Assembly (NCBI GenBank): GCA_014904985.1
Contig: MU128989.1
Span: forward strand, 160,299-224,298
Direction: 5' to 3'
Length of the DNA stretch: 64,000 bases
From: Hydnum rufescens UP504
Lineage: Eukaryota > Basidiomycota > Agaricomycetes > Cantharellales > Hydnaceae
Below, piece by piece: positions 3,671 through 44,209 of this stretch (position 1 is its first letter; each line of letters opens with the position of its first letter). Below the pieces are notes generated by a model. The model ran no database searches. It saw only the letters and a program-made list of their open reading frames with translations, and was not told the DNA's origin. The translations under genes and the position numbers were made by a program.

Positions 3671-3960
3671 GTGCGAGTCTGTTGCGTGTCGTAGAAACGT
3701 TTGGCAAATCCGAAGCATGTACTTGAACTACAGTAGCCTTCGGAGAGGCCTCGCGAAACTTGTCTCCCCATGATCATGATCTTTTTCTGCCTCAATCACC
3801 CAAACGTCATAATTGTACAGTACACAAATTCGGGGACTAAACTGAGAGCCCACTCTGCAGTTCACCCTTGGCCACAGGCATAAGCCGACTCTGAATTCAG
3901 CATCCCTTGGAGGGTTAGGGTTAGGAAGATTCAAAGGATGAAAAAAAGAAATGCAACAAC

Positions 3961-4147
3961 CCTTTCACAACGCTTGCCGCGAGTGTAGTAGCAAGGTCAT
4001 AGCGCTCAAGGCCGTGCAAGCAGAGGACCAACAGCTGGGTGTCAAAAATACAATAACCTTTTAAGACCCCGGTGGGGTCGTTTAAGTGGTTAAACTTACA
4101 AGAACAGATACTACACTTGATCTAAGCCAAAAGGCCCGAGTGGTGAG
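3961..4147 (-). ncRNA. U2 spliceosomal snRNA (copy 1)
   Basis: Reading the minus strand gives the invariant U2 5' region GGCCTTTTGGCTTAGATC, the branch-point recognition sequence GTAGTATC, stem IIa (GACCCCACCGGGGTC) and an Sm-like site ATTTTTG, then two 3' stem-loops ending near GTGAAAGGG. U2 pairs with intron branch points in the spliceosome. This copy differs from the one at 43744-43928 by one base after the GTAGTATC region and by several in stem-loops III/IV. Those changes leave the main stems plausible, so it may be functional. Ends are estimated from family length. Confidence 0.9.
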
Positions 4148-4260: not shown

Positions 4261-7240
4261 GTGCACCACGAGCCCGTAAGTTTCAAGTATTCACATTACG
4301 CTCATAACCAATATCAATCTTTGTTTCTACTGCTATTGCCGGGCCGCTTCTGCTTCTTCATGCAGATCCTTGTAAAATTCAGGAGTCATCCCAGGCTTGC
4401 GACGACCGACTCGTTGAATGGTCCCTTGATAGCGCCATTGAAGTGTAGCCGCACCTGTTCGCGAAAAGTGGCTGCGGGATCCACACCTTCCGTTTCACAC
4501 ACCCATGAAAACCACCTATGGCCCGCGGTCACATGCTGTATCATGATTCACAACCGTTATGATTCATCCCTTCACAACCAAAAGCGGGACCGGTCACACC
4601 GGGGACGCACCATTATTTCATCGTGGTGTATGGCCTCAAGAACTTCCACACTTCCACACTGTCCAAATCTCCGGCAGCACGGAATTTCGCGACAGTCGGC
4701 GGGTTCACATCCAATCCTCGCGCTTCATGCACAGGGTGGATGATGCATAAGTGTGCTGAAAGAGAATGGGCAGTCTCCCGCCCCGCTTCCCAGAATCCCG
4801 CGTGGACGGACTGCGCCCCGTAGAAGGATCCTAATTCTTCAATACGTCGCAGAAGACTGAAATGTCTGCAGTATCACGCTTGTCGGGAAATCAATCAGGT
4901 CGGCCAGGAAGGAAGGTACGTGCCAACTTCGCTTCGTCTTCCGCTACTTTCGTGAAGTCAGAGAAGAATTGTTGAGGCAAAGGATGCCCATCGATTTTGA
5001 TATTCCTAAAGCGCACTCTAAGATCCCACGTAGAAACAAGGGCTAGTATGAGCAAGGATGTACCACGCATATCACGAGTGCATACTAACGCGAGATCCAA
5101 ACTGCAAAACGAGTCGGTGGGGATCAAAACCTTATAATAAAGCGGGTCGCCTTGAAGCAGGAACTCAGGCCCACTGCTCGATATTGGCTAATGCATGCAG
5201 TATCGCGATGCGATTTTTGAGGCTCCCCGCCTTGCCTCGTTTCACACCACCTTCCCAGGGGCAACAACCATTAGATCGGGTTCGCGAGGCGGAACTTCTG
5301 GAGGCACCGGAGGATCCGACAAGGCTCTTCCAATCGATTTCAACTTTCCGGTGCGGAAGATGGCTTCGCGTGCGTTCAACCTGTCCCGAAACGCTCAGAC
5401 CTTAGCACCGCAGGGGGGCGTGGAGGACATCGGTACCTTTAACTCTGGATTTGCAGTACTCCAAATGATCACGGATCAGCCAAGCAGTGTCATTGGTTCA
5501 GTGAATTCTGCATCGGCGGGAGAGATTCTTAAGTTGGGGTAGTCGCGCATTTTCCCGATCTTGGAATTTATGGTTGGGAGGGTCCGCGAAATCTAAGAAG
5601 TGGCAGTCGTAAATACGTGCTTATTACAGCCGTTTGCAAAACTGTTGGCCGCGACTTGAATTTTGGATCCGCACCACCTGCTCGCGCCAAAATCAAGCCA
5701 AAACTCGGGGAACGATAACTCCTCAACAACACAACGTAGCGACATATGGTTTGTTGCAACGTTCTCGCCTCGTCAATATCTAGGGCCCGGTGTGGTCAGA
5801 TTCTCAAAATTCTCAAAAATGCGTATTTCCACTTTCCCAATCTTCGGCGAAGGATTACGGCTGAACGGCTGCACCGTTTGGCTTCATTTTTTAATATGTT
5901 GTTAGGGTTAATATTCTCTAGGGCCCCATGGTCTTTGCAAGATTTTTGGATTAGTTTTGGGTCATCTGTGTATTTAAGGGTCTGTAGCCACAACATTATT
6001 CAATCCGTATTGCTTTCCTGGCTTCCCCAGAGCATGTCCTCACCCTACAATGATGTTATGTATGTCTAATGCAAGTTATTTACAATGATCAAGGCCTTGT
6101 GAGCCATGGAGAATTCGGATAATGCCGATGTCGAGTTGATCATACTTGTTCATGGGGAACAAAAAAGTGCAGAAAAATAGGCTCCCCAGGGACACAAGGA
6201 AGTCTACTAGGCCACCACCTCGCCGTATGGTGGATATTGATGTATCTCCTCCAGTCTCACCCACAATACTAGGTATTGTGGGTGAGACTGGAGGAGATAC
6301 ATCAATATCCACCATACGGCGAGGTGGTGGCCTAGTAGACTTCCTTGTGTCCCTGGGGAGCCTATTTTTCTGCACTTTTTTGTTCCCCATGAACAAGTAT
6401 GATCAACTCGACATCGGCATTATCCGAATTCTCCATGGCTCACAAGGCCTTGATCATTGTAAATAACTTGCATTAGACATACATAACATCATTGTAGGGT
6501 GAGGACATGCTCTGGGGAAGCCAGGAAAGCAATACGGATTGAATAATGTTGTGGCTACAGACCCTTAAATACACAGATGACCCAAAACTAATCCAAAAAT
6601 CTTGCAAAGACCATGGGGCCCTAGAGAATATTAACCCTAACAACATATTAAAAAATGAAGCCAAACGGTGCAGCCGTTCAGCCGTAATCCTTCGCCGAAG
6701 ATTGGGAAAGTGGAAATACGCATTTTTGAGAATTTTGAGAATCTGACCACACCGGGCCCTAGATATTGACGAGGCGAGAACGTTGCAACAAACCATATGT
6801 CGCTACGTTGTGTTGTTGAGGAGTTATCGTTCCCCGAGTTTTGGCTTGATTTTGGCGCGAGCAGGTGGTGCGGATCCAAAATTCAAGTCGCGGCCAACAG
6901 TTTTGCAAACGGCTGTAATCGCTCGGCAGGCAGAGCTACCATCCGCAACTGCTTTTAATTCGACCACTTTCCATTGCCCAGGACCAGGAGCCTCGACCCA
7001 AACTTGTTTCTCGGAAGAACCGTCCTTTCGTGGCGAGGACCTGATGTGTACTGCATACGTATATGCCTGGAGCCCAGTCTCACTCTTTCTCGTCTTCAGA
7101 TCGCAATCGTACCGATGCCAGGAGCAAACTGCATTTAGGCAACAGAATAAATCCATGTTCATGGCCCGGGGAGGATCGGTTCCAGGAACCAATACTGACC
7201 AGCCACTACAGAATCGGCCCCACAGACGTTGGAGCCTTAC
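4261..7240 (-). pseudogene. Rieske-DUF455 protein pseudogene, split by a palindromic insertion
   Basis: This is a decayed, inverted copy of the intact gene at 41758-43589. On the minus strand, 7240-6920 encodes the second half of a Rieske domain (CSWHRYDCDLKTRKSETGL, where the intact copy has CPWHRYDFD). The first Cys-His pair (CPHLG) lies beyond the 5' truncation at about 7240 and is absent. Similarity resumes at 5622 and runs to about 4261 through the DUF455 ferritin-like part (SDFTKVAEDEAK near 4950, KGPFNESVV-like tail near 4430), with many indels. A 1.29 kb element interrupts it between 5626 and 6916. With no N-terminal cluster ligands, broken frames and the insertion, it cannot encode a working enzyme. 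Confidence 0.85.
5627..6915. mobile_element. giant-palindrome DNA transposon derivative (643-bp arms, 3-nt spacer)
   Basis: Positions 5627-6269 and 6273-6915 are reverse complements, with TAG (6270-6272) as the only spacer. Four pairs of mirrored reading frames match residue for residue, differing only at the centre. The ends read CAGCCGTTTGCAAAAC in both arms and are flanked by TA (5625-5626 and 6916-6917). The intact paralogue near 42270 has GAGCAATTGATAAGC where this locus would read GAGCGATTAATAAGC once one TA and the element are removed, so the TA is a target duplication. TA duplication is the hallmark of Tc1/mariner/pogo (IS630) elements. The arms hold only short open frames that match no transposase I recognise. 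It appears non-autonomous. Confidence 0.9.
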
Positions 7241-41757: not shown

Positions 41758-43589
41758 GTGGAAAGACCCTCGGACTATCACTCATTACTTTTATTTCGGT
41801 TATCTGTCTTGACGAGCACGGATGGACTAGACGCTTCGCTCTCGGCCTCTGGAGCAGTTGACCATGCTGTCAATAAGGAAGACAGAGAAGATGATCAGCT
41901 ATACGTGATGGAGTCCACCTGCCCGCATCTCGGTGCCGAGTTATCCCATGCCGATATCGAAGAGTGTGGGGCTGATTCTGTTGTGGCTGGTCAGTATTGG
42001 TTCCTGGAACCGATCCTTCTCGAGTCATGAACACGGATTTATTCTTTTGCCTAAATGCAGTTTGCCCATGGCATCGGTACGATTTCGATCTGAAGACGGG
42101 AAAGAGCGAGACTGGGCTCCGGGCATGTACGTATGCAGTACACATCAGGTCCTCGCTACCAAAGGACGGTTCTTCCGAGAAACATATTTGGGTCGAGGTT
42201 CCTGGTCCTGGGCAATGGGAAGTGGTCGAATTAAGACCAGTTTCGGAAGGTAACTCTATTTGTCGAGCAATTGATAAGCACGTATTTACGCTTCTTAGAC
42301 TTCGCGGACCCTCCCAACCCTAAATCCCAAGATCGGGAAAATGTGGGACTACCGCAACTCAAGAATCTCTCTCTCCCCGATGCTGAATTCACTGAACCAA
42401 CGACACTGCTTGGCTGGTCCGTGGTCATTTTGAATACTGCCAGTCCAGAGTTAAAGGTATCGAGGTCCTCCACGCCCCCCTGTGGTGCCAGAGCCTGAAC
42501 GTTTTGGCACAGGTTGAACGCACACGACAAGCCATCCGAAGCTTCCGCACCGGAAAGTTGAAATCGATTGGAAGATCCTTGTCGGATCCTCCAGTGCCTC
42601 CAGAAGTCCCACCTCGCGAACCTGATCTAATGGTAGTTGCCCCTGGGAAGGTGCTTAAACGGGGCAAGGCGGGGAGCCTCAAAAATCGCATCGCGATACT
42701 GCATGCATTAGCCAATATCGAGCAGTGGGCGTGAGTTCCTGCTACAAGGCGTCCTGTCTTATTATAAGGTTTTGACCCCAACCGACTCGTTTTACAGTTT
42801 GGATCTCGCGTTAGCATGCGCTCGTGATATAAATGGTGCATCCTTGTTCATGCAAGTTCTAGGTGGGATATTATAGCGCGCTTTGGGAATATCAAAATCA
42901 ATGGGCGTCCTTTGCCTCAACAATTCTTCTCCGACTGGACGAAAGTAGCCGAAGACGAAGCCAAGTGGGCGCGAACCTTCCTTCCTGGCCGACCTAATTG
43001 ATTTCCTGACAAGCGTGATGCTGCAGACATTTCGGTCTTCTGCGACGACGTCTTGAAGAATTAGGATCCTTCTACGGGGCACACTCCGTTCATGCGGGAT
43101 TATGGGAAGCGGGGCGGGAGACGGCCCATTCTCTTTCAGCACGCTTATGCATCATCCACCTCGTCCACGAAGCGCGAGGATTGGATGTGAACCCGGCGAC
43201 TGTCGCGAAATTCCGTGCAGCCGGAGATTTGGATAGTGTGAAAATTCTTGAGATCATACACCACGATGAGATAACGGTGCGTCCCCGGTCCTGCTTTTGG
43301 TTGTGAAGGAGTGAATCATAAACGGTTGTGAATCATGATGCAGCATGTGACGGCGGGCCATAGGTGGCTTTCATGGGTGTGTGAAGCGGAAGGTGTGGAT
43401 CCCGTTGCCACTTTTCGCGAACAGGTGCGGCTGCACTTCAATGGCGCTATCAAGGGACCATTCAACGAGTCGGATCGTCGCAAGGCTGGGATGACGCCTG
43501 AATTTTACACGGATTTGCACGGAGAAGGAGGAGGCGGCCAGCAACAGCAGTACAAACAAAGATCGATATTGGTTATGAGCGCAATGTGA
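41758..43589 (+). CDS. Rieske [2Fe-2S] - DUF455 (ferritin-like) fusion protein, intact copy
   Basis: The Rieske half carries both ligand pairs, CPHLG and, across an intron, CPWHRYDFDLKTG. The second half is DUF455-like: VAPGKVLKRGKAGSLKNR, NIEQWA, LDLAWDIIARFGNIKI (spliced), SDWTKVAEDEAKHF, GAHSVHAGLWEAG, HEARGLD, ILEIIHHDEITHVTAGHRWL and GPFNESDRRKAGM. The Glu/His residues in EDEAKH, HEARG and HHDEITH suit a ferritin-like di-metal site. Seven introns splice in phase. It ends at TGA 43589 after a Gln-rich tail. The region before DGLDASLSASG is open with no good ATG, so 41758 is only the frame limit and a first exon is probably missed. The reaction is unknown; electron transfer from the cluster to the second domain is inferred. 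Confidence 0.85.
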
Positions 43590-43718: not shown

Positions 43719-43743
43719 CTACCTGTGCCCCATCTTGGCTCCT

Positions 43744-43928
43744 CACCACTCGGGCCTTTTGGCTTAGATCAAGTGTAGTATCTGTTCTTTTAAGTTTAAC
43801 CACTTAAACGACCCCACCGGGGTCTTAAAAGGTTATTGTATTTTTGACACCCAGCTCTTAGTCCTCTGCTTGCACGGCCTTGAGTGCCATGACCTTGCTA
43901 CTGCACTCGCAGCAAGCGTTGTGAAGGG
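43744..43928 (+). ncRNA. U2 spliceosomal snRNA (copy 2)
   Basis: GGCCTTTTGGCTTAGATC, GTAGTATC (branch-point recognition), stem IIa GACCCCACCGGGGTC, ATTTTTG Sm-like site, and stem-loops III and IV (CTTGCTACTGCACTCGCAGC) follow in U2 order. A run of about 16 T begins near 43937. The gene starts about 155 bp after the Rieske-DUF455 stop codon, the same order as in the inverted left-hand copy. Ends are estimated. Confidence 0.93.
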
Positions 43929-44209
43929 TTTTTCGATTTTTTTTTTTTTTTTCTTCTTTTTATCCTTGAATCCTTCTAACCCTAACCCTCCAAGGGATGC
44001 TATTTAGAGTTACGTCTATGGCTAAGGCTGAACTGCAGAGTGGGCTCTCAATTGAATTCCTGAATTTGTGTACAATGAACATTATGAAGTTGGGTGATTG
44101 AGGCACAAAAGGATCATGGGGAGATAAGTTTCGCCATGTCGCTCCAAAGGCTGGTTCAAGTACATGCTCGGATTTGCAATAGTATGTATCACACGCAACA
44201 GACTCGCAC

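Follow-up and report, generated by a model that had tools for sequence, protein, structure and literature searches.

The palindrome at window positions 5623–6919 is most likely real and young, an inverted dimer that arose from one end of a DDE_3 transposon (the window is the whole 64,000-nt stretch of contig MU128989.1 that was analysed). We give a probability of roughly three in four to the reading that one end of an IS630/Tc1/mariner-type (DDE_3) transposon of Hydnum rufescens, with long terminal inverted repeats, is present here as an inverted dimer that was inserted at a TA. Hydnum rufescens is described as an ectomycorrhizal mushroom of the Cantharellales (PMC7550596). The observed part of this explanation comprises the anatomy of the element, the TA duplication, the empty site in a paralogue, and the collinearity with both ends of a related element on contig C110 (arm positions 468–647 plus the centre triplet at one end, 1–517 at the other).

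Anatomy of the palindrome

Alignment of the two arms to each other showed that positions 5623–6919 form a perfect palindrome, with 647-nt arms, no mismatches and a 3-nt centre. Positions 5627–6269 and 6273–6915 had 0 mismatches in 643, with TAG as the centre, in line with the identical 643-bp arms and 3-nt TAG spacer of the preliminary description. Its palindrome of 1.29 kb also stood, as a perfect palindrome at 5623–6919, but the element proper is 5627–6915 (1289 bp), since the flanking TA duplication (5625–5626 on the left, 6916–6917 on the right, as read from the bases and the empty site) belongs to the target and lies outside the element. The palindrome reaches four bases beyond the element on each side because the target, ATTAAT, is itself palindromic. 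A scan of the window for arms of at least 40 nt and spacers of at most 10 nt found this palindrome and a weak one (49-nt arms, 86%) that was not counted. The same settings found no palindromes in a single shuffled window.

In each arm, three features point inward, namely a terminal repeat, eleven codons that start with an ATG, and the beginning of a second open frame. The left arm (5627–6269, plus strand) is one transposon end read from outside to inside, and the right arm (6273–6915, minus strand) is the same end inverted. Within the left arm, positions 5627–6139 (arm positions up to 517, plus strand) are probably a long terminal inverted repeat, which matches locus L010 and the left end of locus L013 up to arm position 517; its full length is discussed below. 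The eleven codons from the ATG (6106–6138, plus strand) fall within this repeat and were found in the translations of both ends of the C110 element, where they may be the start of a gene. The remaining portion (6140–6269, plus strand) is found at one C110 end only (L013:1132–1311, 97%) and holds the start of the second open frame. In translation, this frame begins at the ATG of the second gene, crosses the centre and continues into the opposite arm (6152–6466, plus strand, 104 amino acids), and it had no Pfam match. The complement CTA of the central TAG (6270–6272) continues the C110 sequence beyond arm position 647. The possible gene content of the palindrome is the start of the second frame, with unassigned function, and eleven codons that possibly begin the first gene.

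Insertion site and the question of an assembly error

The two flanks, joined with one TA, were aligned to window positions 41900–42800 in reverse complement, and the junction showed no gap. The joined flanks read TTATTAATCG and the paralogue reads TTATCAATTG, with CA in the paralogue where the target has TA. Hence, the inverted paralogue retains the empty insertion site, as had been claimed for a TA-flanked insertion. The site lies at 42272–42273, beside paralogue sequence at 41965–42272 (plus strand), and its two-base position was taken from ungapped pairing. The TA duplication was observed at the palindrome itself; the matches to the terminal 20-mer elsewhere in the genome start with TA by the search pattern and are no evidence on duplication at other sites.

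The identification of the host as a Rieske-DUF455 gene was supported by the intact paralogue, where the Rieske domain (PF00355) scored 20.3 bits, exactly at the cut-off, and the DUF455 part (PF04305; 43335–43586, plus strand) scored 71.8 bits. The interrupted copy keeps a DUF455 remnant at 4386–4541 (minus strand; PF04305, 55.4 bits). Two U2 snRNA matches in the window (3959–4146, minus strand, and 43743–43931, plus strand) lie one in each copy of the inverted segmental duplication, away from the element, which itself contained no known RNA families.

Assembly is difficult where there are long palindromes, inverted paths or long terminal repeats that are identical. An assembler might therefore have made the palindrome out of a full-length element with such repeats, by folding one end onto itself and losing the interior, and the long runs of N in the genome stretches examined, which may or may not be gaps, point in the same direction. 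The source on the genome names Illumina ALLPATHS-LG, hybrid or PacBio assembly routes (PMC7550596). We nevertheless consider such an artefact improbable. The flanks differ from each other and both match the paralogue at the TA, whereas a fold-back of a read should also have duplicated the flank. Moreover, the innermost 130 bp come from one end only, and other loci hold palindromes whose arms are just 95–98% alike. The recurrence of palindromes with diverged arms suggests a class that is more than a mere mirror made by the assembler, and favours a recurrent process. An assembly error at the centre is thus unlikely, and it is the main doubt that remains about the palindrome.

Relatives and the probable donor element

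A search of the genome with one arm yielded at least 23 matches on 16 contigs, two of which were the palindrome's own arms. Among the matches listed, the closest contigs were C516, C53 and C110, at 92–97%. The terminal 20-mer, with up to three mismatches, occurred 32 times in the genome (two of these in the palindrome) versus 5 times for a backwards control, which shows that the ends recur elsewhere. The proposed search for a full-length parent and further palindromic copies was successful in the first part only: C110 holds a parent-type element, in decayed form, but no second palindromic copy was found among the matches listed, the counts of which are lower bounds. This counts against our best explanation, as mobility of the palindrome itself is only putative.

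On the minus strand of C110, arm 1–517 comes first, followed by what is left of the transposase, by a second open frame that runs in the opposite direction, and by arm 647–468 inverted. The match to arm 1–517 is interrupted by a 1.5-kb insertion. The right end consists of arm 468–647 plus the centre triplet of the palindrome; a copia-like LTR truncates it on the outer side, and still farther outward the sequence is N. Arm positions 468–517 are directly present at both ends of L013 (C110), inverted and 96% alike, while positions 518–647 with the centre triplet are present at one C110 end only. A match on C500 that runs to arm position 532 (81%) is the sole other listed match past 517, and positions 533–647 occur among the matches listed only in C110 and the palindrome.

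We infer that the terminal repeat of the C110-type element is about 513 bp long; the length is an estimate because the outer right end of C110 is missing and is supplied by C53. Contig C53 has arm 1–472 followed by the start of an LTR, and C110 has the end of an LTR followed by arm 468–647. The copia-like insertion in L011 (C53) is the same one as in L013 (C110), and the 5-bp overlap between the two pieces (468–472) fits a target duplication of this insertion. C53 and C110 either descend from one copy or are halves that were parted by rearrangement, gaps or an assembly split. C110 holds the only full-length relative examined that closely matches the arm. That this model is decayed and nested, and lacks its outer right end, also counts against our best explanation.

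A related element on C138 has 323-bp ends that are 95% identical, with a DDE_3 match between them. A 741-bp element on C125 (L060; 75384–76124) belongs to a related terminal-repeat family. The results of a query with the interior of L013 were dominated by a repeat of about 1.37 kb that is unrelated and present in many copies, so that no count of parents was obtained. A plasmid search for relatives of the palindrome gave no matches, and a 20-nt match to a Nitrosomonas bin was dropped, being at about chance level in 257 billion bases.

The relatives support our assignment to the DDE_3 group. The remnants of the broken transposase of the C110 element matched PF13358 (DDE_3) with 31.7 and 31.5 bits (cut-off 28.6), and one open piece scored 31.6 bits. 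Furthermore, 6 of the 32 terminal 20-mer matches, on 5 contigs, were located within 7 kb of one of the 68 DDE_3 matches in the genome; in 2000 uniform random placements the mean was 0.46 and the maximum 4. Comparison of the C138 pieces with the HTH_23, Sleeping Beauty HTH and Tc3 HTH models gave matches that were all below their cut-offs. None of the three second-frame open pieces of L013 had a Pfam match above the cut-off, and the C138 open piece had no Pfam match at all. Judging from these sequence comparisons, the palindrome is one end of an IS630/Tc1/mariner-type (DDE_3) transposon, duplicated in inverted orientation. This agrees with the preliminary description, which had proposed an inverted dimer derived from a TA-targeting transposon: its ends recur, and the complete arm with the centre triplet can be pieced together from the two ends of the C110 element, which has DDE_3 remnants.

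Nine of the 68 DDE_3 matches, on nine contigs, lie in a stop-free open frame of exactly 351 amino acids. They probably represent a different DDE_3 family whose activity was more recent.

Possible formation of the dimer

The ends of the two halves are no more than 3 nt apart. This would be natural if one end were sealed on itself or if two identical ends were joined. We infer that a break or stalled copying may have occurred about 650 bp inside one transposon end. The broken end could then have been sealed by fold-back (hairpin capping) with a 3-nt loop, and replicated. In a variant of this route, the strand would have snapped back at the motif CTAA-AA-TTAG just inside the C110 end, and a few bases would have been lost later. 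Alternatively, two identical ends might have been joined at a small CTA/TAG motif. Either way, the product would be symmetric about its core and bounded on each side by an intact transposon end, and the dimer could have been made in place, by repair after excision, or made elsewhere and then transposed.

Abortive gap repair is a possible but rather doubtful alternative. After excision, both flanks would have copied the same end, one of them via the wrong terminal repeat, and the copies would have been joined. The shared repeat of about 513 bp estimated above would permit invasion of the wrong end, and abortive gap repair was reportedly proposed by Rubin and Levy in 1997 as a route to defective elements. 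However, two independent stops within 3 nt are needed, for which the layout of C110 gives a chance of about 7 in 4000 in an element of 4–5 kb, although joining at a short palindromic motif would make the coincidence less improbable. The sequence is compatible with fold-back, end joining and gap repair alike, and with an origin in place as well as with transposition.

Another explanation might be that the palindrome is an ordinary MITE, in which an internal deletion left a short element whose terminal repeats are long. The C125 element has such a form (256-bp arms, 88% identical). Yet only one palindromic copy of our element was found, in a search whose counts are lower bounds. A simple internal deletion is rejected because it should leave ends that differ past arm position 517, while both halves continue into the same end for 130 bp beyond the shared repeat. 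Hence, we regard a MITE origin as very unlikely. The inverted dimer does share with MITEs the lack of a transposase and the presence of terminal inverted repeats and a target duplication. It differs from MITEs in that one copy was found, it has no unique interior, and it is a dimer of one end rather than an internal deletion.

The inverted dimer resembles several other systems in part. Like IS630/Tc1/mariner elements, it has a TA target and terminal inverted repeats, and its relatives have a DDE_3 transposase. However, these relatives have long terminal repeats (323 bp in C138, and about 513 bp, as estimated, in the C110 type), and the palindrome itself is without transposase. In having inverted repeats that are very long and almost adjacent, it is reminiscent of Foldback and Galileo elements. 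Galileo is assigned to the P superfamily, with target duplications of 7 or 8 bp (PMC4168063), whereas the TA duplication and the DDE_3 relatives of the palindrome exclude a Foldback/Galileo element. The symmetric centre with its tiny loop also fits hairpin capping as described for fold-back inverted duplications after double-strand breaks (PMC10622511), but the palindrome is a transposon-sized unit with intact ends and not a dicentric chromosome.

Age and CpG content

The preliminary description had suggested that the insertion is young or that its arms are kept alike by gene conversion. With 0 differences in 643 positions, the upper 95% limit on arm divergence is about 0.5% by simple arithmetic. 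The arm contains 26 CpGs, with an observed/expected ratio of 0.79. In contrast, L010 has 2 CpGs and L011 and two of the three L013 arm pieces have none (ratios of 0.00–0.10), and the interior of L013 has 1 CpG in 3.1 kb. CpG loss was not uniform, as the outermost L013 piece keeps 8 CpGs (0.61) and the C138 end has a ratio of 0.59. Comparison of the arm with five pieces of L010, L011 and L013 showed that 62 of 99 differences were transitions at CpG; the numbers were 4 of 10 in piece L013 279–517 and 16 of 74 in the more distant L012. The insertion looks young because the arm retains CpGs that its closest relatives have mostly lost. Either the insertion is young or the arms were homogenised by conversion; CpG retention supports youth, and nothing demands conversion.

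Other palindromes in the genome

Instability is expected of long perfect palindromes. According to a survey of 118,019 genomes, perfect repeats whose arms reach hundreds of bases or more are rare but do exist (PMC13155455). We surveyed 47 loci, which contain 217,723 non-N bases in all (L027 consists of N throughout). Locus L009 had been set aside, as had 15 loci in which the window or another locus is repeated. Five of the 47 loci contained other palindromes, different from the element at 5623–6919, with arms of 63–537 nt, spacers of 0–6 nt and arm identities of 95–98%. These are L015 6391–6840 (C210), which extends to about 1 kb at 84%; L026 6839–7080 (C110); L045 243–570 (C181); L052 3845–3972 (C343); and L059 4–1083 (C64), which reaches almost to the end of its locus. 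One shuffle per locus by pairs of bases gave no palindromes in the 47 loci. The surveyed loci match or adjoin repeats and are thus a biased sample, from which no genome-wide rate can be derived.

Loss of a palindrome-processing nuclease was considered as a cause of the many palindromes, but absence is not indicated, as a profile search of the genome found one SAE2 match (27.8 bits, with one internal stop) and three Mre11 matches.

Possible hairpin RNA and silencing

The predicted fold of a transcript across the element is one hairpin of 647 bp (−1309 kcal/mol). Such a hairpin RNA would cover the terminal repeat common to the transposon family. In Mu killer of maize, which derives from MuDR, both termini are described as the same end, with two partial gene copies that meet in inverted orientation (PMC3440606). 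The palindrome has the same layout, as both of its termini come from one end of the parent element. It differs from Mu killer in superfamily and kingdom, being a DDE_3 element with a TA target and shorter arms. Its centre is resolved to the base in the assembly, while that of Mu killer is reported to have resisted sequencing and amplification, and silencing was demonstrated for Mu killer (PMC3440606), whereas it would be putative for the palindrome.

By analogy, a silencer role for the palindrome locus is plausible, in which it would act as a source of hairpin RNA that silences its own transposon family. The layout shared with Mu killer and the predicted hairpin are consistent with this idea, as are the profile matches in the genome to Piwi domains (8 rows on 3 contigs), RdRP (24 rows on 6 contigs) and DNA methylase (two). 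However, three unrelated palindromic repeats are CpG-poor too, so that the CpG loss of the relatives is no evidence for this locus, and a young insertion cannot account for an old CpG loss. We think it unlikely that the locus is a functional silencer. A broader conjecture, to which we give even less credence, is that in Hydnum rufescens recurrent fold-back repair turns transposon ends into spacer-poor palindromes, of which the young ones silence their own families via hairpin RNA. If true, the fungal counterpart of Mu killer would reflect a recurrent process and not a single accident.

The literature matches listed (titles and abstract openings, with few subscription journals) included no fungal Tc1/mariner derivative that is a palindrome of one end. 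The combination of a readable junction, an identifiable donor end and an empty-site control makes dimer formation testable. Likewise, it can be tested whether such dimers seed RNA silencing in this species, whose genome has matches to Piwi and RdRP domains.

Strong CpG depletion was observed in the repeats L010–L013, L026, L045, L059 and L060 (the last, on C125, being nearly CpG-free), compared to an observed/expected ratio of 0.89 for the whole window. This pattern is consistent with CpG methylation of repeats.
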